Origin: a virus
Virus record (IMG/VR): IMGVR_UViG_3300044971_000920
Coordinates: 1-34,798 of that record
DNA: 34,798 bases
Reading direction: 5' to 3' (one strand)
Shown one piece after another: positions 1-34,798 of the stretch. Under the pieces are notes generated by a model. The model was given only the letters and a program-made list of their open reading frames with translations. It did not search any database and was not told the origin of the DNA. Each line of letters begins with the position of its first letter. Position 1 is the stretch's first letter. A program made the translations under genes and the position numbers.

Positions 1-84
1 CCGTTAGGTTCGTTAGGAATGAGTGGTGGACTGGGTTTTGGGCCTAACCAGCGCCTAACAGACCTAACAGCTCGATGCTCATTT
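1..84. repeat. Left copy of 84-bp terminal direct repeat
   Basis: These 84 bases are identical to 34715-34798. The usual cause is a circular or circularly permuted molecule whose assembly graph was cut at an arbitrary point, so the true unit is 34,714 bp. The copy holds six of the CCTAAC/GTTAGG iterons, apart from one that falls just outside it, and the 3' end of the primase gene. A genuine short terminal redundancy is possible but less likely, because the cut falls inside a gene-plus-repeat region and not at a packaging site. Confidence 0.9.
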
Positions 85-2533
85 GCACGGCACGGCTGGT
101 TCCGCCGCCACCTTTGAACCAAACAGCGCCGGTCTTCACAGCACCTGGCAGGCGCGCCAGCACGATCGGCCAGCAGTTGCCCCATGCCGTATCCGCGAGC
201 ATGTGAGCGATGGCGTTAGCCGTGTTGCTGACGATCACGCAGCCATCCTCAGCCTTGATGCCATGGCGTCCGAGCACGTTCTGCGCCTCGGTCGGGGTGA
301 CATGCGGATCACTGCCGCGGTGCAGTGCCAGCTCCACCAGCTCTGCGATGGTGCGCGTGACGGTGCGGTCACCTTCGACGCGTAGCTGATGCTGCAGGAT
401 GGTCTGCAGGCAGCGCCGCTCGTCTGGCACCTCTACGGCCTGGCTGTAGGCAGTCCAGTCGTTCTGCTCGATCAATGCCCATGCCTGCTCGCGGGTCACC
501 ACCTCACGCGACTGCAGCGCCCATGCACCGGCGAGCAGGGTGCCGTACTGATCGCCCAGTCGCTGCGAGTCGAACGCTTCGGCTGCGGCCTTTACGAACA
601 CCTTGACCGACTGGCGGATGGTGGGGATCAGGGCAATGGTGCGCGCGATCAGGCGCTGGCCAACCTGCTCCGAGATGAAGCGATCCAGGTCGCGGTCCAA
701 CGCCTCCCAGTGCGCGGTGCGCTCAGCCTTGGGTAGCTCGGCTGGGTTGCGGAGCGTGAGCTGGGCAAAGCGCGATTTGTCGGCGCCCTGCTTCAGCGCA
801 GTGGCGATGCTGCTCATCAGGAACATGGAGCGGATGGTGTAGCGCTGCGTGTCACCTTCTGGGCTGCCCTTCAAGGTGTGCGCGCGACTCTCACTGCTGG
901 CGACACGTGCAAGGCCGAGCACTGCCTGCATCCGCTGCTGATCGTTGCGCTCATTGCTTTCGGCTTCATCGAAGACCACCGGCAGCGCATCAGCGCGCAG
1001 GGCCTGCCGAATGCCGGGCTCGGTGGTGTTGCCGGCCACGATGAGGCCCATGTCACCGAGCAGTGGGGTGACATATCGCCCGAGCACTTCGGACTTGCCG
1101 GAGCCTGAGCCTGCGGTCAGCCAGGCATGTGGCCGCCAATCAAGCGCGCCGCAGATGGGTGCAAGCGTGACCCAGCCAGCCAGCAGCATCCCGGATGCTG
1201 GCACCTCCCATAGAAACCGCTCGGCAAGGTCCAGCACCTGGAAGGCTGCGTCGTCATCCAATGGCTGCACGCCTGATGGCCCCTGCAAGCGGCTAAGCCG
1301 CTGGTACACATAGCTGCTGCCGGTGATGCCATCGCATACGGTGCGGCTGGCGCCATCGACGATCAGCTGATCACCGAGGTGCAGCACTGATCGGCCGCCA
1401 TCCCACCATGCACCGCGGCCGCGGATGCGATCGGGAGAGTAGACTCCAGCCGCGGCCTGCTGGGTGAACATGCTGCTAGCGGCTGCAGTCCAGTTGACGC
1501 CTGTCTTGCTGGGATAGAGCGTCTCCCAATACGACAGCGGCGCCAGCGCGCAGAGATTGGTGCCGGTGTGGCTGCTGCGCGATAGGCGGCAGACTTGCCC
1601 GGTGCTGGCGGGTTGGTAGTAGTAGCCATCACCGTCAAAGCCGAGACAGGTGAAGTGCTCACCAGCTGCTGGCAGCGGTTCGGGGTCTGGCTGCGCTATC
1701 GGCTCAGGCGGCTCCGGCGCCGCGCTTGGCGCCTCGATCGGCGGTGAGCGGTGTGCCTTGAGGTAGGCAGCAGCTTCGGCTGGCGTCCATGTGGCATCAG
1801 CAAGATCCCAGCCATCGGCAACGCCATCTGGTGTGGTGACGATGCGCACCTGCGCGGCACCGATCGACAGAAGGCGCCCTGCCAGCTTGACCATCGCCTG
1901 GCGGCCGACATCATCAGCATCAGGCCATAGCGTGCACCGCCGCCCGGCCAAGAGTGACCAGTCGGCCTTGTCGATCGCTTTGCAGCCTAATGGCCAGGTG
2001 GCGACTGCAGCTGATGGGAACAGGCGCGCAGCGGCATCGGCGGTCTTCTCGCCTTCAACGATGAGCACCGGCGCATCAGCGGCCCGCCGCGCCCAGTACA
2101 GCGGCAACGCCGCCGGCGGCCGCTTCCATCGCCAGCCGGTGCCATCCCATGACAGTGGGCGGATCACCTTGCCGGGGAATCGGCAGACGATGAAGTCTCG
2201 GCTGTACTGCCAGACCTGCTCAGCACCGGCAGTCGGTGGCTCCGGCACTACCGATAGGTGCTGCTCAATGCGCTGGCACGCTTCGGCATACGGCCAGCCG
2301 GTGATGCGGGTGAGCAGGTCCATGCCATTGCCGCCACCGCCGGCGCCATCCTTCCCGCCGCACTGGTTGCAGAACCACGAGCCGGTGCCGTCCTTGTCGT
2401 CGAAGCGGTAGCGATCACTGCCGCCGCAGCAGGGGCAAGGCTGGTGCTTGTCGGTCAGCTGATCCGCGGACAGCCCGCCCATCGCCGCCAGCAGGTCCGG
2501 CCACCTGCCGCGGGTGAGGTCTTGGATGGTCAT
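44..2533 (-). CDS. Primase-helicase (zinc ribbon, TOPRIM, DUF927-like ATPase)
   Basis: This 829-aa protein probably makes primers and unwinds DNA at the phage origin. Residues 33-58 form a CxxC-x18-CxxC zinc ribbon of the P4-primase type. A TOPRIM domain follows, with VEGEK at 159-163 and DADD at 205-208 as the likely metal-binding residues. A proline-rich linker (about 262-290) leads to a DUF927-like helicase half with Walker A GSGSGKS at 475-481 and Walker B VVFDEAE at 519-525. The ATG overlaps the stop of the upstream ribbon-helix-helix gene. The stop lies inside the repeat array at the circle junction, so the gene runs straight into the putative origin. Domain order matches phage and satellite replicative primases. 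I infer that it works with the sliding clamp downstream and with the host polymerase. Confidence 0.88.
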   Translation of the reverse strand: MTIQDLTRGRWPDLLAAMGGLSADQLTDKHQPCPCCGGSDRYRFDDKDGTGSWFCNQCGGKDGAGGGGNGMDLLTRITGWPYAEACQRIEQHLSVVPEPPTAGAEQVWQYSRDFIVCRFPGKVIRPLSWDGTGWRWKRPPAALPLYWARRAADAPVLIVEGEKTADAAARLFPSAAVATWPLGCKAIDKADWSLLAGRRCTLWPDADDVGRQAMVKLAGRLLSIGAAQVRIVTTPDGVADGWDLADATWTPAEAAAYLKAHRSPPIEAPSAAPEPPEPIAQPDPEPLPAAGEHFTCLGFDGDGYYYQPASTGQVCRLSRSSHTGTNLCALAPLSYWETLYPSKTGVNWTAAASSMFTQQAAAGVYSPDRIRGRGAWWDGGRSVLHLGDQLIVDGASRTVCDGITGSSYVYQRLSRLQGPSGVQPLDDDAAFQVLDLAERFLWEVPASGMLLAGWVTLAPICGALDWRPHAWLTAGSGSGKSEVLGRYVTPLLGDMGLIVAGNTTEPGIRQALRADALPVVFDEAESNERNDQQRMQAVLGLARVASSESRAHTLKGSPEGDTQRYTIRSMFLMSSIATALKQGADKSRFAQLTLRNPAELPKAERTAHWEALDRDLDRFISEQVGQRLIARTIALIPTIRQSVKVFVKAAAEAFDSQRLGDQYGTLLAGAWALQSREVVTREQAWALIEQNDWTAYSQAVEVPDERRCLQTILQHQLRVEGDRTVTRTIAELVELALHRGSDPHVTPTEAQNVLGRHGIKAEDGCVIVSNTANAIAHMLADTAWGNCWPIVLARLPGAVKTGAVWFKGGGGTSRAVQMSIELLGLLGAG

Positions 2534-2661
2534 TGCTTAAGCGCCCGCTCCAGTAGCACGCGGATCGCCGTTGCACGCGACATGGCATCACCACGCCAGG
2601 CATCCAGCCGCCGCAACAGCTCAGGCGTCAGGCGCACGGGTGTGGGATGGGCAAGACGCAT
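2530..2661 (-). CDS. Mini ribbon-helix-helix DNA-binding protein
   Basis: This 43-aa protein consists almost entirely of an RHH (CopG/Arc-like) fold: a short strand (PVRLTP), helix A (ELLRRLDAWR) and helix B (SRATAIRVLLERAL). Such proteins act as dimers and place the strand in the DNA major groove. An ATG at 2730 would give 66 residues, but it lies upstream of the start site predicted from the leftward promoter at 2679-2715, so I prefer the ATG at 2661. The gene is first in the leftward unit and its stop overlaps the primase ATG. Its position next to a 37-bp palindrome suggests autoregulation, which is inference. No obvious Shine-Dalgarno sequence is seen. Confidence 0.65.
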   Translation of the reverse strand: MRLAHPTPVRLTPELLRRLDAWRGDAMSRATAIRVLLERALKQ

Positions 2662-2678: not shown

Positions 2679-2715
2679 CTTGCGGACTGTAGCCGCCGCT
2701 GCTACGGTCAGCAAG
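2679..2715. promoter_or_regulatory. 37-bp palindrome with back-to-back sigma-70-like promoters
   Basis: The two arms match at 15 of 18 positions around the centre base 2697, with the arm pattern CTTGC-n-GAC-n-GTAGC-n-GC. On the + strand, TTGCGG (2680-2685) and TACGGT (2703-2708) are 17 bp apart. On the - strand, TTGCTG (2714-2709) and TACAGT (2691-2686) are also 17 bp apart. Each promoter's -10 box sits inside the other's footprint, so a regulator bound here would control both units. The helicase starts on one side and the RHH gene on the other. The -10 boxes are imperfect (3-4 of 6 consensus bases), so promoter activity is inferred. Confidence 0.6.
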
Positions 2716-2758
2716 CCTGCATGGTGCCATGTCTTACAGCGAAACAGGGAGAGTTGGT

Positions 2759-4102
2759 GTGACCCTCCGCCCCTATCAGCAAAAGATGGTGACTGACATT
2801 CGGCTGCAGTACCAGCTGGGCAAGCGCAGCGTGCTGGCAGTGCTGCCCACTGGTGGTGGCAAGACCGTGTGCTTTGCGTATATCGCTGATGCCGCCAGCC
2901 GCAAGGGCAACCGCGTGCTGATCCTTGTGCATCGCGCGGAGCTGCTGGACCAGGCCAGCCGCAGCCTGCCGATGCACCATGGCATCATCGCCGCCAATCG
3001 CGCCATGGACTTGAGCCATGCGGTGCAGGTGGCCAGCGTGCAAACCGTGGCGCGGCGGCTGCACCGGCTGCCGCGGGATATGTTTCAGCTGGTCGTGGTG
3101 GACGAGGCCCACCACACCACAACTAAAACGTGGGCGGCAGTGGTGGAGCACTTCAACAGCGCCAAGCTGCTAGGGGTGACAGCAACGCCGATCCGCGGTG
3201 ATGGCCGCGGCCTTGGCGAGCATTACCAGGCCATGGTCGAAGGCCCTAGCGCGCAGTGGCTGACCGATAACGGCTACCTGGCGGCTGCGCGGGTGCTGGC
3301 ACCGCCGGGGTTCAGCGCCGCCGGGATGCGCAAGCGGATGGGCGACTTCGACCAGCGCGATGCAGAGCAGCAGGTGCGCGCGATACATGGCGACTGCGTG
3401 AGCCACTACCGGCAGCGCCTGAGCGGCCAGACCGCGATCGCGTTCTGCTGCAGTGTGGCTCATGCTGAGGCAGTGGCGGCATTGTTTAATGCCAGCGGCA
3501 TTGCTGCCGCCAGCATCGACGGCACCATGGATGCCGTCACCAGGCGCCACCTGCTGAAACAGCTGGGCGCTAACAAGATCAAGGTACTGACCTCCTGCGC
3601 GCTGATTGGCGAAGGCGTGGATGTGCCGAGCGTCGGGGGCTGCATCATGCTGCGCCCCACGGCCAGCGTGGCACTGCATCTGCAGATGATCGGTCGCTGC
3701 CTGCGGCCATCCGGCAGCAAGGTGGCTGTGGTGCTCGACCATGTAGGCAACTGCCTGCGGCTGGGTCACCACCTGGAACCCCGCGAGTGGACGCTGGAGG
3801 GGCTCAAGAAGCAAGACCGCGAAAAGGCGCCATCGGTCAAGGTGTGCCCGAAGTGCTACGCCGCAATGGCCAGCCAGGCCAGGGTGTGCGGCGAGTGCGG
3901 GCATACGTTTGCCGCCGAGGTGCGCGAGCTGGAGCAGGTGGATGGGCAACTGGTCGAGATGGCCGCCCGTGAGCGGAAGCGGGAGCAGGGTGGGGCGCAG
4001 AGCCTCGACGACCTGATCGCATTAGGGCAGCGCAGGGGGTACAAGAATCCAGCGGCATGGGCCAAGTACGTCATGTATGGACGATCCCTGAAGGGTCGTT
4101 AA
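2759..4102 (+). CDS. Superfamily 2 DEAD/DEAH-type helicase with zinc ribbon
   Basis: This 447-aa ATP-dependent DNA helicase resembles the UvrB/RecG-like phage helicases. Its motifs, numbered from this GTG, are Walker A PTGGGKT at about 30-36, DEAH at about 115-118, a GVTATP motif III, and QMIGRCLRP as motif VI. A C-terminal zinc ribbon (CPKC...CGEC) and a basic tail follow. I chose GTG 2759 because a strong GGGAGAG Shine-Dalgarno lies just upstream and because the family commonly begins LRPYQ. An ATG at 2729 would add ten residues without a ribosome site. It is the first gene of the rightward unit, directly after the palindromic promoter. A 7-bp stem covers its last codons. Confidence 0.88.
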   Translation: MTLRPYQQKMVTDIRLQYQLGKRSVLAVLPTGGGKTVCFAYIADAASRKGNRVLILVHRAELLDQASRSLPMHHGIIAANRAMDLSHAVQVASVQTVARRLHRLPRDMFQLVVVDEAHHTTTKTWAAVVEHFNSAKLLGVTATPIRGDGRGLGEHYQAMVEGPSAQWLTDNGYLAAARVLAPPGFSAAGMRKRMGDFDQRDAEQQVRAIHGDCVSHYRQRLSGQTAIAFCCSVAHAEAVAALFNASGIAAASIDGTMDAVTRRHLLKQLGANKIKVLTSCALIGEGVDVPSVGGCIMLRPTASVALHLQMIGRCLRPSGSKVAVVLDHVGNCLRLGHHLEPREWTLEGLKKQDREKAPSVKVCPKCYAAMASQARVCGECGHTFAAEVRELEQVDGQLVEMAARERKREQGGAQSLDDLIALGQRRGYKNPAAWAKYVMYGRSLKGR

Positions 4103-4128
4103 TCGGTTACAATAACGTGAGTCACCTT

Positions 4129-4683
4129 ATGGACATGGAAGAAACTTGGGCTCAGATCAAAGGCTTTGAAGGCATTTACGAGGTCTCAACGCTTGGCCAA
4201 ATCAGAAGCCTTGACAGGCCGCAACGCGTCAGAGGCAATGGCATTTCACTTCAAAAGGGTCAAACCCTTAAGCAATGGAAGCAAGGTAGCTACATGTATT
4301 GCGATCTCAGAAAGCCTGGCATTAAACAAAAAGCAAGAGTCCATGTTGTGGTTCTTGAAACTTTTGTTTGCCCTAGACCCAATGGAATGATTGCGTGTCA
4401 CAACAATGGTGATCCAACCGACAATCGACTCTGCAATCTTCGATGGGGCACCCACGATGACAACGCCAAGGACAAGATTTTGCATGGAACACATCAATAT
4501 GGAGAATCCTGCCCAAAATCAAAGCTAACGGAAGCGCAAGCTATTGCGATTCTTGAATCAACAAAAACCAACAGAGAAACAGCAAAGGACTTTGGGATTT
4601 GCAGCGCAACTGTAAGCCACATCAAAACTGGCCGCAACTGGCCACATCTTCAAGCCAGACTGGCTAAGAGGCATGGGCTGTGA
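4129..4683 (+). CDS. HNH homing endonuclease (NUMOD4 / HNH_3 type)
   Basis: This 184-aa free-standing endonuclease has an N-terminal NUMOD4 module (ETWAQIKGFEGIYEVSTLG). The HNH core follows, with VHVVVLETF, then H in IACHNNGDPTDN and N in CNLRWGTHDDN. A C-terminal helix-turn-helix (AKDFGICSATVSHIKTG) probably binds the target site. It is AT-richer than its neighbours: my hand count of 4261-4320 gives 28 of 60 G+C, against well over 60% nearby. It also uses A/T-ending codons, which indicates recent arrival as a selfish element. A TACAAT box at 4108-4113 could give it its own promoter, although the -35 box is poor. Its TGA overlaps the GTG of the methyltransferase. Confidence 0.85.
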   Translation: MDMEETWAQIKGFEGIYEVSTLGQIRSLDRPQRVRGNGISLQKGQTLKQWKQGSYMYCDLRKPGIKQKARVHVVVLETFVCPRPNGMIACHNNGDPTDNRLCNLRWGTHDDNAKDKILHGTHQYGESCPKSKLTEAQAIAILESTKTNRETAKDFGICSATVSHIKTGRNWPHLQARLAKRHGL

Positions 4684-5792: not shown

Positions 5793-6102
5793 CCGCGGCC
5801 CTGTGCGCCTGTACCGCAACAACACCGGCACGCTGCGGGATGCCAACGGCCGCCCGGTGCAGTTCGGCCTGGCGGTTGGCAGCGCTGATCTGATTGGCTG
5901 GACCACGCGCACGATCACGCCGGACATGGTGGGTCAGCAGGTGGCGGTGTTCACCAGTATCGAGGTGAAGAGCGCCACTGGACGACTGCGACCGGAGCAG
6001 CGGCAATGGCTGGATGCCGTGCAGGCAGCAGGCGGCATCGCCGGCGTCGCGCGCAGCGTTGAGGATGCTGCACGGTTGACAGGGGATGCGCAGGGTGTAT
6101 GA
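5749..6102 (+). CDS. VRR-NUC domain nuclease
   Basis: This 117-aa protein is a minimal VRR-NUC (PD-(D/E)XK) nuclease. NNTG at 24-27 and GSADLIG at 44-50 supply the catalytic Asp47, EVKS at 72-75 supplies the Glu/Lys pair, and a Gln follows in QRQW. Stand-alone phage members of this family cleave branched DNA, so a role in resolving junctions before packaging or during RecET-type recombination is likely. It starts at GTG inside the methyltransferase tail. Its TGA overlaps the next ATG (ATGA), which suggests translational coupling. Confidence 0.85.
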   Translation: MSEQQIQQHIRLALSRGPVRLYRNNTGTLRDANGRPVQFGLAVGSADLIGWTTRTITPDMVGQQVAVFTSIEVKSATGRLRPEQRQWLDAVQAAGGIAGVARSVEDAARLTGDAQGV

Positions 6103-6323
6103 TGGTTGCACGGGGCGAGAGTCCCGCCTTCATTGCGACCCCAACCATGGATCTGATTCTCTGGCTGCTGCTGCCTCTGCTGCTGGTGGTGGCTGTCATC
6201 CTCTGGCTCTCTGAGAGCCGCGAGCAGCGCATCCGCCGCTGGTACAAGCAAGGCATGAGCCAGCGGTGCATCGCTGATCGGCTGTGCTGCAGCCGTTACG
6301 CCGTCCGCAAGGTGCTGGCATGA
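6099..6323 (+). CDS. Small membrane protein with cytoplasmic helix-turn-helix
   Basis: In this 74-aa protein, residues 18-37 are a strong membrane segment (LILWLLLPLLLVVAVILWL). After a charged stretch (ESREQRIRRWY) comes a compact resolvase/Hin-like HTH (KQGMSQRCIADRLCCSRYAVRKVL). A membrane-anchored DNA-binding protein is one reading. The HTH may instead bind something else or be a relic. I chose ATG 6099 because it overlaps the previous stop and has AGG five bases upstream. An internal ATG at 6147 would still keep both parts. A hairpin with a GAGA loop (6111-6126) lies between the two possible starts. No family is recognised. Confidence 0.6.
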   Translation: MMVARGESPAFIATPTMDLILWLLLPLLLVVAVILWLSESREQRIRRWYKQGMSQRCIADRLCCSRYAVRKVLA

Positions 6324-10474: not shown

Positions 10475-10694
10475 TGCCTTGCGGCTCAGCCAGCACCAGT
10501 TCATTGAAACCAGCCGTGATCACAACGGCCGGTATTTCATCGCCTATTCAGGTGGTGCCAGCGTGTTTGTGCGCGACATTGCTGACCTTCGTCGATTTCT
10601 CAAGCTGCCGAAAGGCTTGCCCATGAGAGAATCACTTGAATCATGGCTTGCCAGTCTGGGCGATCAAGATGCCTCTCAACAACCCGAACCATGA
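10464..10694 (+). CDS. Hypothetical protein (76 aa)
   Basis: No family is recognised. The N-terminal half is predicted strand-rich (FIETSRDHNGRYFIAYSGGASVFVRD) and the C-terminal half helical (LRRFLKLPKG, then SLESWLASLG). It may be a small regulator, since it sits directly before the sigma factor gene and overlaps it by ATGA. That link is only positional. The ATG overlaps the preceding gene. Confidence 0.55.
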   Translation: MKRDALRLSQHQFIETSRDHNGRYFIAYSGGASVFVRDIADLRRFLKLPKGLPMRESLESWLASLGDQDASQQPEP

Positions 10695-11560
10695 GCACTG
10701 ACAGCATTAAGGATTACCTGACTGAGATCGGCCGATTTCCGCTGCTGACTGGTGAGCAGGAGATCCAGCTATCCCGCCAGGTGCGGCGGATGATTGAACT
10801 GCAAGCCATGGAAGGCGAACGCACTAAAGCTGAGCTGCGCGAGATCAAGCGCGGCCATCGTGCGCGTGAAACCATGATGAACTGCAACCTGCGGCTGGTA
10901 GTTCACATCGCCAAGAACTACGTGACCAGGCTGAAGTCTAACGGTCTTGAACTGATGGACCTAATCCAGGAAGGTGCCATCGGTTTGAACCGCGCCGTTG
11001 AGCTATTCGATGGCACCAAGGGCTACAAGTTCTCCACCTACGGCTACTGGTGGATCCGTCAGTCGATTACGCGCGCGATTGATACCAAGGAGCGCCTGAT
11101 CCGCGTGCCGCAGCATGTACTGGATGCCACGTACAAGATTGCCAAGATGCAACGTGAGCATCTGCAGCAACATGGCAGGCCGATGTCAACAGCAGAATGC
11201 GCTGAGCGAATGGAGATGAGTCAGCACGAGCTGCAATCGCACATTATGCGAAATGTACCGCACAGCAGCCTGGATCAACTGGTCAGGGATGATGGGTCGC
11301 CATTGGTTGACATGATCGTTGACGATCATCAGCCTTATGACGATTCGTTGTCCGTGGAATACTGCGAGCAGCTGCAGCTGGCGTTGTCATTCCTTGCCGA
11401 CCGGGATCGCGATATTGTCGCCAGCTACCACGGATTAGGAGCGCCGAAAAAGACGCAAGGCAAGATTGCTGAAGAGCTTGGCATAACGCGCAGCGCGGTT
11501 GGCCAGATCCATGATCGGTCGATGCGGCGGCTTCGTTTGATGCTCACCGAGAAACGCTGA
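10691..11560 (+). CDS. Sigma-70 family RNA polymerase sigma factor
   Basis: This 289-aa protein has the layout of a group 1/2 sigma factor. Region 1.2 is at 4-32 (DSIKDYLTEIGRFPLLTGEQEI). Region 2 spans about 58-130, with NLRLVVHIAKNY, the DLIQEGAIGL polymerase-clamp motif and GYKFSTYGYWWIRQSITRAI for the -10 box. Region 3 follows at about 135-200. Region 4 (225-289) has a diverged HTH (IAEELGITRSAVGQIHDRSMRRLR). Region 1.2 resembles cyanobacterial SigA-type factors most. As the last gene of the rightward unit, it is a likely activator of the leftward, structural unit; this is inference. No ribosome site is visible, so translation is probably coupled. Its last 126 bp are also coding on the other strand. 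Confidence 0.9.
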   Translation: MSTDSIKDYLTEIGRFPLLTGEQEIQLSRQVRRMIELQAMEGERTKAELREIKRGHRARETMMNCNLRLVVHIAKNYVTRLKSNGLELMDLIQEGAIGLNRAVELFDGTKGYKFSTYGYWWIRQSITRAIDTKERLIRVPQHVLDATYKIAKMQREHLQQHGRPMSTAECAERMEMSQHELQSHIMRNVPHSSLDQLVRDDGSPLVDMIVDDHQPYDDSLSVEYCEQLQLALSFLADRDRDIVASYHGLGAPKKTQGKIAEELGITRSAVGQIHDRSMRRLRLMLTEKR

Positions 11561-14697: not shown

Positions 14698-14994
14698 CTA
14701 GGCTGGTGGTGATGGCCATGCGCTAGCACGCTTGGCTGCGAGCTGGTCGCGCAGAGTCCACATTCCGTTTGCGCCTGATGTTGATACGGATGCGTTTTTG
14801 CCGAGTAGCGCAGCAGGGGTGAGCAGGTTTGTGGTGGTGGTGCCGCCGCCCAATGTCAGGGTCACTGTGTTGCCGCCGCCCCATGCGTAGTTCGGCTGGT
14901 TCCATGTACCTGTGCCGCTAGCGACAAAGGCAAGGCTTGGCAGGACCAAATCAATCGACGTTTGCCCCGATGGTGTTTGGTTGAAATTGGCCAT
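14698..14994 (-). CDS. Hypothetical virion-associated protein (98 aa)
   Basis: The protein is rich in Gly, Thr and Asn (GGGNTVTLTLGGGTTTT) and looks like a small beta structure or a disordered adhesin tip. Its gene follows the 333-aa putative fibre gene by three bases. I do not recognise it. A role as a fibre tip or fibre chaperone is possible only by position. Confidence 0.5.
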   Translation of the reverse strand: MANFNQTPSGQTSIDLVLPSLAFVASGTGTWNQPNYAWGGGNTVTLTLGGGTTTTNLLTPAALLGKNASVSTSGANGMWTLRDQLAAKRASAWPSPPA

Positions 14995-14997
14995 GGG

Positions 14998-15999
14998 TTA
15001 GGTGGTGCGAGCCAACATGACAGGAGTGGCGCCCGTGGTGATCGTTGCGTTATTTGCAAACGCCATCACCTCCCAGACCTCAGAGCCAGCGGTAACAGTG
15101 ATTGTGTCGTAGATGCCTAATGTGTTGGCGGTGTAAAGCATGGTGATCCCAAAATCACTGCCCATTGTTGTAGTAATCCACTGCGAGTAAGGCAGACTAT
15201 GAAATACAGGGCTTGAGTTTGTGGTGTATGCGCCGTTGGTGCCGTTGAAGCCAATGGGCAACACAATGGCGCTTCGCGTCGGGACAGCTCCAATATTTGT
15301 AAGCCAGCTGTTGCTGGTATTGCCTAAGCCGCAATATGCGTATTCTGCGCCTTGCGTATAAGAACTAGCCGTTCCTATGTACTGAGTCCCCGAAGTTGAT
15401 CCGTTTAGGGCAACACCTCGGCCTAACTCCCTACGTAGCGAGCAAAAGCGGTTAAAACCGACTTGTCCCCACCCGCCGCTAACCGCAGGCGCTACCTCGT
15501 ATAACAGGTTTAGGAAACCTTTGCTAAAGTCAACCCAAGGCTGGAAAGATCCACTACCTTTTACGATGGTAAAGCAGGAATAAGTTGCGCCTTGTGAGAT
15601 CACAAAGAAATTAACATCGCCACTGGTATAGCGAGTGATCTTGACATCAGTGGTAAAGTTAAAGGTTGCTATTTGCTTGTGATTAGTTGCGGCGTTTGTT
15701 GCTGTTGCAAAAAAGTCAAGATATTGAGTGCCGGATGGTATGTCAGATCCTGTGTTCCAGCCGGTTGCCACGTGATAGAACAGGTTGCCGCCGGCGGCGA
15801 CCATGAACCAGTAATAAGTCTTGCCATATGTCCCGGCGGCATTGGTGATTTCCAGCACACGGTTTTCAAGCGTGTTTGTGAAATTGTCATACCACTCGGT
15901 CATCAAACCAGCGTCAATAAACGCCGATCGAAGCTGCGTAAAGAAAGTCGCGGCGGTCAGTGTCGCCGTTGCGGTATAGGTCTGCTTAGTGACGGCCAT
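14998..15999 (-). CDS. Putative receptor-binding / tail tip protein (333 aa)
   Basis: This is a beta-rich protein with many aromatic, Asn, Ser and Thr residues. The N-terminal 30 residues (TATATLTAATFFTQLRSAFIDAGL) form a helix that may attach it to the tail. The base composition is lower in G+C than the core genes (31 of 60 by hand count at 15361-15420), as is common for host-recognition genes that are exchanged often. No family is recognised. Neighbours are tail and fibre-type genes, so receptor binding is the likeliest role. Confidence 0.5.
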   Translation of the reverse strand: MAVTKQTYTATATLTAATFFTQLRSAFIDAGLMTEWYDNFTNTLENRVLEITNAAGTYGKTYYWFMVAAGGNLFYHVATGWNTGSDIPSGTQYLDFFATATNAATNHKQIATFNFTTDVKITRYTSGDVNFFVISQGATYSCFTIVKGSGSFQPWVDFSKGFLNLLYEVAPAVSGGWGQVGFNRFCSLRRELGRGVALNGSTSGTQYIGTASSYTQGAEYAYCGLGNTSNSWLTNIGAVPTRSAIVLPIGFNGTNGAYTTNSSPVFHSLPYSQWITTTMGSDFGITMLYTANTLGIYDTITVTAGSEVWEVMAFANNATITTGATPVMLARTT

Positions 16000-34472: not shown

Positions 34473-34528
34473 GGTGCAGCCGTGTGGCCAGTGCAACCCT
34501 ACTCCGCCGTGATCCATCCTGCAACAAA

Positions 34529-34782
34529 CCTAACAGACCTAACGCATTCCTAACGGGCTCTGTTAGGCGCAAACCCCTTGACAGCACTGGGTTCTCTCCC
34601 TTACCTAACAGACCTAACAGAAAAAGGTATAGATACATATGAGAGAAGACCTTACCTACTGGGTAGGGGGTACTACTCCTCTCTATAAGGGGGTCTTCCG
34701 AAAATCCGTTAGGACCGTTAGGTTCGTTAGGAATGAGTGGTGGACTGGGTTTTGGGCCTAACCAGCGCCTAACAGACCTAAC
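34529..34782. repeat. Iteron array CCTAAC / GTTAGG, putative origin
   Basis: Twelve copies of the hexamer lie in about 255 bp. Direct copies start at 34529, 34538, 34549, 34604, 34613, 34757, 34768 and 34777. Inverted copies start at 34562, 34708, 34717 and 34726. Spacings are 9 or 11 bp. A 17-mer made of two copies (CCTAACAGACCTAACAG) occurs at 34604 and 34768. An AT-rich stretch (34621-34640) and a hairpin lie in the middle. The array is the main non-coding stretch, between primase and clamp genes, as expected for an origin. Confidence 0.75.
34645..34698. repeat. Inverted repeat inside the iteron region
   Basis: GAAGACC (34645-34651) pairs with GGTCTTC (34692-34698). Between them lies a smaller palindrome, CCTAC-TGG-GTAGG (34655-34667), and flanking GAGAG/CTCTC tracts extend the symmetry. 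The element could form a cruciform next to the AT-rich stretch, as seen at many origins. It lacks a T run, so it is not a simple terminator. Confidence 0.55.
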
Positions 34783-34798
34783 AGCTCGATGCTCATTT
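34715..34798. repeat. Right copy of 84-bp terminal direct repeat
   Basis: This copy is identical to bases 1-84 and is the circularisation overlap. When the two copies are merged, the primase gene ends inside the iteron array and the leftward unit continues without a break from primase through the array to the 67-aa gene and dnaN. Confidence 0.9.

Follow-up and report, generated by a model that had tools for sequence, protein, structure and literature searches.

The window analysed here, i.e. the whole stretch of 34,798 nucleotides of viral DNA, carries an 84-bp direct terminal repeat (1-84 and 34715-34798), which marks it as a complete genome whose ends join into a circle; with the ends joined, the leftward genes continue from position 44 across them to ~12 kb. 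The virus infects cyanobacteria, and a 37-bp palindrome stands between two of its early modules; to our knowledge, early gene control in cyanobacterial siphoviruses has been little studied. Leftwards of the palindrome lie a gene for a ribbon-helix-helix (RHH) protein (2661-2530), a primase gene (2533-44) and then, over the joined ends, genes for the beta clamp, terminase, portal, capsid and tail. Rightwards lie those for an SF2 helicase, an HNH endonuclease, a cytosine methylase, a VRR-NUC-like nuclease, an exonuclease, a RecT-like annealing protein, a single-strand binding protein and a phage sigma factor. The features on which the argument turns are as follows.

44 to 2533, minus strand: DNA primase (phrog_35358, E 8.5e-135; PF08273), in the same operon as the RHH gene, whose stop codon is overlapped by ATGA
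2530 to 2661, minus strand: putative RHH repressor of 43 amino acids, MRLAHPTPVRLTPELLRRLDAWRGDAMSRATAIRVLLERALKQ, the first leftward gene (phrog_4738; AlphaFold fold)
2679 to 2715, no strand: 37-bp palindrome (arms agreeing at 15 of 18 positions; kept in phage S-H1 and in 100 of 101 relatives with an RHH of this family), read as two divergent, interleaved promoters with an RHH operator inside them
2680 to 2708, plus strand: predicted rightward promoter, -35 TTGCGG (2680-2685), 17-bp spacer, -10 TACGGT (2703-2708), from sequence and from the TAnnnT layout and ATG peak in relatives
2686 to 2714, minus strand: predicted leftward promoter, -35 TTGCTG (2714-2709), 17-bp spacer, -10 TACAGT (2691-2686), from sequence, the layout and ATG peak in relatives, and arm comparison
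2689 to 2705, no strand: inner 17-bp operator GTAGC-N7-GCTAC, proposed site of an RHH dimer of dimers (inner-pair covariation; the TA-adjacent base tracks RHH residue 10)
2729 to 4102, plus strand: SF2 helicase (ResIII/Helicase_C; phrog_16), the first rightward gene, with ATG 2729 lying 20 nt past the -10 box (alternative GTG 2759)

Within the rightward genes, a NUMOD4/HNH endonuclease ORF (4057-4683) lies in a stretch of low GC content (0.52) between helicase and methylase and is probably a mobile insertion. The phage sigma factor gene (10643-11560; phrog_351, E 1e-73) is close to the end of the rightward operon, and its product may drive the late genes. The best sigma70-like match of the stretches scanned (6076-6103, TTGACA-16-TATGAT, 11 of 12 positions) falls inside the rightward operon, so the palindrome is not necessarily the sole rightward promoter. 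The proposal of an earlier note that the palindrome controls both halves of the genome holds only as regards gene orientation; further promoters may well exist, given this match, the sigma factor gene and the gap of ~300 bp that follows the primase.

The assignment of the 43-residue protein draws on its match to phrog_4738, a family of transcriptional repressors (E 5.3e-8), and on its predicted structure; the Pfam RHH_1 model (PF01402) scored 14.8 bits, below its cut-off of 20.5. The AlphaFold monomer model (pLDDT 91.8, the S-H1 row being left out of the input) comprises an extended segment at residues 1-12 followed by helices at 13-23 and 29-42. The solved chains nearest to it are mostly RHH antitoxins and plasmid regulators, including the RHH domains of ParD, PrpA, TraM, MazE, VapB and Reg576, all with weak scores (Z no higher than 5.0), and a sequence-based search of solved structures returned no RHH protein with a convincing score, its top matches looking like chance. 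The predicted fold agrees with RHH, albeit on weak fold scores.

The palindrome (CTTGCGGACTGTAGCCGCCGCTGCTACGGTCAGCAAG) occupies 2679-2715 and its arms agree at 15 of 18 positions, exactly as the earlier note had described; widened to 2677-2717, agreement rises to 17 of 20. It is the top-scoring palindrome of such geometry in the window. Genome-wide, the palindrome by itself is only moderately improbable, shuffled genomes yielding 0.05 palindromes of this geometry each, or 0.39 when spacers from 0 to 11 are all admitted; within the 97-bp gap between the divergent genes, none of 20,000 shuffles equalled it. The entire genome holds a single instance of the double -10 motif A...TA.{11}TA...T, and the inner operator GTAGC-N7-GCTAC has no second exact copy in the window. 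Copies of the half-site with up to three mismatches number 18 elsewhere in the window against 11.7 expected, which argues against a half-site regulon, and scans against Rfam and for tRNAs gave no matches. The RHH reading frame most likely begins at 2661 rather than at 2730, which places the palindrome between genes and outside the interior of the longer ORF (2730-2530).

Viral contigs were scanned with the helicase and with primases, giving more than 300 loci, many of them duplicated between scans. An RHH profile matched in 296 of the loci examined, usually overlapping the primase start, and removal of duplicates left 101 distinct loci with an RHH protein of the window's family. The exact layout A...TA-N11-TA...T stands upstream of the RHH gene in 100 of these 101, as against 1.5% of shuffles, and in most relatives the site stands 16-19 nt ahead of the RHH start codon; the sole exception (L015) encodes a family RHH with a SQPIAIR strand, and its upstream DNA lacks the motif. 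Loss of the palindrome from close relatives had been named in advance as an observation that would tell against the proposal; the relatives retain it. Among them is a cultured isolate, phage S-H1, in which the palindrome is conserved (record 14891-14927; 10729-10765 in locus L001) beside an unannotated RHH gene (record ~14943-15095; 10564-10713 in L001). In S-LBS1 the gene order is similar, with an ORF of 59 aa upstream, but the intergenic region holds no comparable palindrome. The two-way layout is missing from the distant RHH groups, with strands RRTITLDL and PLSVSIT, the pattern appearing in one of 50 distant-RHH loci. Related primases accompanied by a different RHH (PLSVSIT or PVSVSIT strand), and without the two-way site, were also seen in genomes of Cyanobium, Synechococcus and Vulcanococcus (L317-L350), where they represent prophages or satellites.

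On each strand of the palindrome, the TTGCnG box and the TAC-GT-type -10 box 17 bp from it can be read as originally described. The predicted transcripts would start at ~2715 (rightward) and ~2679 (leftward). A generic sigma70 scan flagged neither promoter, because their hexamers are far from the Escherichia coli consensus; cyanobacterial -10 elements are of Ta-aaT type and the -35 boxes weak or diverse (PMC3219970). Both -10 boxes read TAnnnT across the relatives with variable middle bases, a regularity to be read in the knowledge that the search pattern itself fixes T1, A2 and T6 of both boxes and that nearly all loci satisfy it. Start codons provide a further line of evidence: ATG codons peak 20-23 nt past the -10 box, both in the divergent direction (46 ATGs in 94 unique flanks) and on the RHH side (51), and helicase ATG 2729 of the window falls inside this peak. 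The peak distance is kept although the first divergent gene differs between loci, the helicase taking that place in no more than 13 of 100. The left TTG takes either of two registers (16- or 17-bp spacer) and the inner dyad is rigid, behaviour expected of a -35 box for the former and of an operator for the latter. Taken together, the layout in 100 of 101 relatives and the start-codon peaks at equal distances on both sides argue for overlapping divergent promoters, as proposed from the single sequence.

The association between the operator and the RHH protein is centred on residue 10 and on the third base of the -10 box. Where residue 10 is R, both arms read TAC (65 of 65 loci); where it is Q, the RHH-side arm reads TAG (22 of 22), the left arm being looser and differing from TAG in nine of 22; and where it is L, each arm reads TAA in nine of 10, the rule-breaker on the RHH side (L104) combining L with TAT. 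In a comparison of 73 DNA columns with 38 protein columns, the pair formed by DNA column 19 and protein column 10 stands out: column 19 carries the highest mutual information with residue 10 (1.35 of 1.41 bits, flanking bases being lower), and no other single protein column predicts the third -10 base as well as column 10 does (98.7%). As an association, this agrees with the RHH trait that strand residues set the operator bases. Covariation between the arms, over and above column composition, is strongest at the inner pairs 12/28, 16/24, 17/23 and 18/22 (for 12/28, complementarity of 0.89 observed and 0.47 expected), and of the outer pairs 6/34 alone is marginal. The structure of AmrZ, an RHH protein, with DNA shows alternate strand residues (18, 20 and 22) reading bases, with Arg22 forming a bidentate bond to guanine; a valine in the strand of FitAB contacts a thymine methyl group (PMC3325190). 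These contacts fit the pairing of R with G and of L with T. By strand alignment, we infer that RHH residue 10 is one of the alternate base-reading positions. Since residue and base are each other's best predictor, the suggestion that the RHH protein is the ligand of the palindrome is strengthened.

We consider it probable, with good confidence, that the palindrome is an autoregulatory early control site at which the RHH protein binds the inner dyad and blocks both promoters in a co-ordinate autorepression. Two sigma70-type promoters would lie on opposite strands, with the -35 box of each abutting the -10 box of the other, so that their combined bases make the dyad. The RHH protein, as first product of the leftward promoter, would bind the 17-bp inner dyad, probably as two dimers with one on each GTAGC half-site, and once bound would shut both promoters together, so that the RHH-primase operon and the divergent helicase and recombination operon would be transcribed early in a self-limiting and co-ordinated way. 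Specificity would reside in strand residue 10, which would read the non-consensus third base of the -10 box (R with the G of GTA, Q with CTA and L with TTA) and could thereby change while T1, A2 and T6 stay fixed. The evidence is computational throughout: the dyad, the promoter-like layout, its conservation, the link between residue and base and the joint transfer can be read from sequences, whereas binding, repression, stoichiometry, transcript starts and any part in immunity are deduced from them. Second exact inner sites are rare among the relatives, with four cognate (two of them promoter-like, in L137 and L144) as against one non-cognate. In these two loci (6741-6777 of L137; 6738-6774 of L144), an extra exact inner operator with a one-way promoter follows the primase.

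The RHH gene and its operator appear to move between close relatives as a matched pair. In 68 pairs of phages, the RHH/operator class differs between genomes whose primases are more than 90% identical (98.7% in the best case), which suggests exchange of gene and site as a unit. Two bounded examples (L129/L128 and L146/L155) show the break: identity is 88-95% in either flank and is lost in the middle part, where the site lies. For L129/L128, homology returns inside the RHH gene, just past the strand. A tree of RHH helices contains ~5 changes at residue 10, with the operator consistent with all of them, and only two or three phylogenetically independent residue contrasts, which alone cannot reach significance; in S-H1, a Q/L-type RHH body carries an R at residue 10, and the operator is of the TAC type. 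On the primase tree there are at least 16 changes in each trait, and 10 of 10 independent pairs are concordant (p=0.002), a count that includes block transfers of linked DNA and that, the RHH gene and site being adjacent, mainly reflects co-transfer rather than ten separate co-adaptations.

This pattern allows a reading, compatible with autorepression, in which the same repression site is an immunity determinant, selected because it keeps out, or allows escape from, related phages that co-infect or already reside in the cell, class swaps giving heteroimmune types. We regard this as a serious possibility whilst leaning against it. The class differences between near-identical primases and the breaks of homology at the cassette favour it, as does comparable divergence of repressor and operator in Cluster A mycobacteriophages (PMC6550527). 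However, integrase and resolvase domains (PF00589, PF00239) are absent from the window, an absence compatible with episomal maintenance, no lysogen is known, the divergent genes are replaced as well in many different-class pairs, and ordinary modular recombination of early genes would spread matched pairs too. A related generalisation, which we put forward tentatively, is that the -10 boxes may double as repressor recognition bases, such that one residue and one base per arm suffice for a new specificity with the promoters unharmed, and that matched cassettes with RHH proteins of 43-60 residues may circulate as heteroimmunity types. An immunity role, plausible from the swapping pattern, would raise the interest of the site if true.

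The earlier note had instead seen a mutually exclusive switch, in which competition of polymerases at shared bases, tipped by the RHH protein, commits the phage leftward or rightward. Its premise stands, in that the promoters share bases and RNA polymerase is unable to occupy both simultaneously, and the regulator gene does lie on one side. We nevertheless judge such a switch unlikely: one symmetric operator spanning both -10 boxes predicts joint repression of both directions, neither an opposing regulator at the site nor a second state was found, both flanks encode early replication and recombination genes rather than alternative programmes, and a published study of bidirectional promoters in E. 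coli saw no competition between RNA polymerases at basal activity (PMC12825309). A site that shuts both directions fits these observations better. It is very unlikely that the dyad is a mere by-product of two symmetric promoters, with the RHH protein acting elsewhere; the outer arm positions, mostly promoter elements without arm-to-arm covariation, would suit this, but the inner pairs do show such covariation, and the third -10 base, a position that a promoter does not constrain, follows residue 10. An origin dyad bound by replication proteins, suggested by the position between primase and helicase genes, is extremely improbable, since the helicase is usually not adjacent in relatives, the RHH-base association would be left unexplained and a better candidate lies elsewhere. 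This candidate replication origin is a cluster of ACCTAAC repeats holding eight of the nine genome copies (34520-34798 and 1-70; ~1 expected genome-wide), in the ~300-bp gap between the primase stop and a small ORF preceding the beta clamp; the GC skew shows no clear sign of an origin at 2.7 kb.

Under the favoured reading of co-ordinate autorepression, one short sequence would serve two promoters and one operator and yet could still change specificity, and natural variation in ~100 environmental phages provides a testable one-residue/one-base recognition rule for a DNA-binding fold. As the isolate S-H1 carries both site and RHH gene, the idea can be tested in culture. The literature searches made turned up no paper on this element.

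CopG-type RHH proteins autoregulate cop-rep operons in plasmids. The present locus resembles these systems in having a very small RHH gene just before a replication gene (here with the ATGA overlap to the primase), a symmetric site over the RHH gene's own predicted promoter and, as proposed, autorepression; it differs in that there is one promoter in the plasmids and two interleaved divergent promoters here, in a phage, and in that specificity here varies within the family via one strand residue and one -10 base. The bidirectional promoters of Warman and colleagues (PMC12825309) likewise combine pseudo-symmetric DNA with divergent transcription, one polymerase orientation excluding the other, but share a single -10 element with starts beside or within it, whereas the palindrome has separate -10 boxes (2686-2691 and 2703-2708) and predicted starts ~36 bp apart on their outer sides. 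In the repressor/stoperator immunity of Cluster A mycobacteriophages (PMC6550527), repressor and site diverge together among close relatives, as the sequence association indicates here, although those phages have many dispersed stoperators and a different repressor, as opposed to what is usually one site and no demonstrated lysogeny. Finally, AmrZ of Pseudomonas aeruginosa (PMC3325190) is a larger bacterial regulator with a C-terminal domain and a different site, but resembles the phage protein in its RHH fold, alternate strand residues reading bases, an arginine-guanine contact and repression of its own gene, all of them features predicted or proposed for the protein described here.
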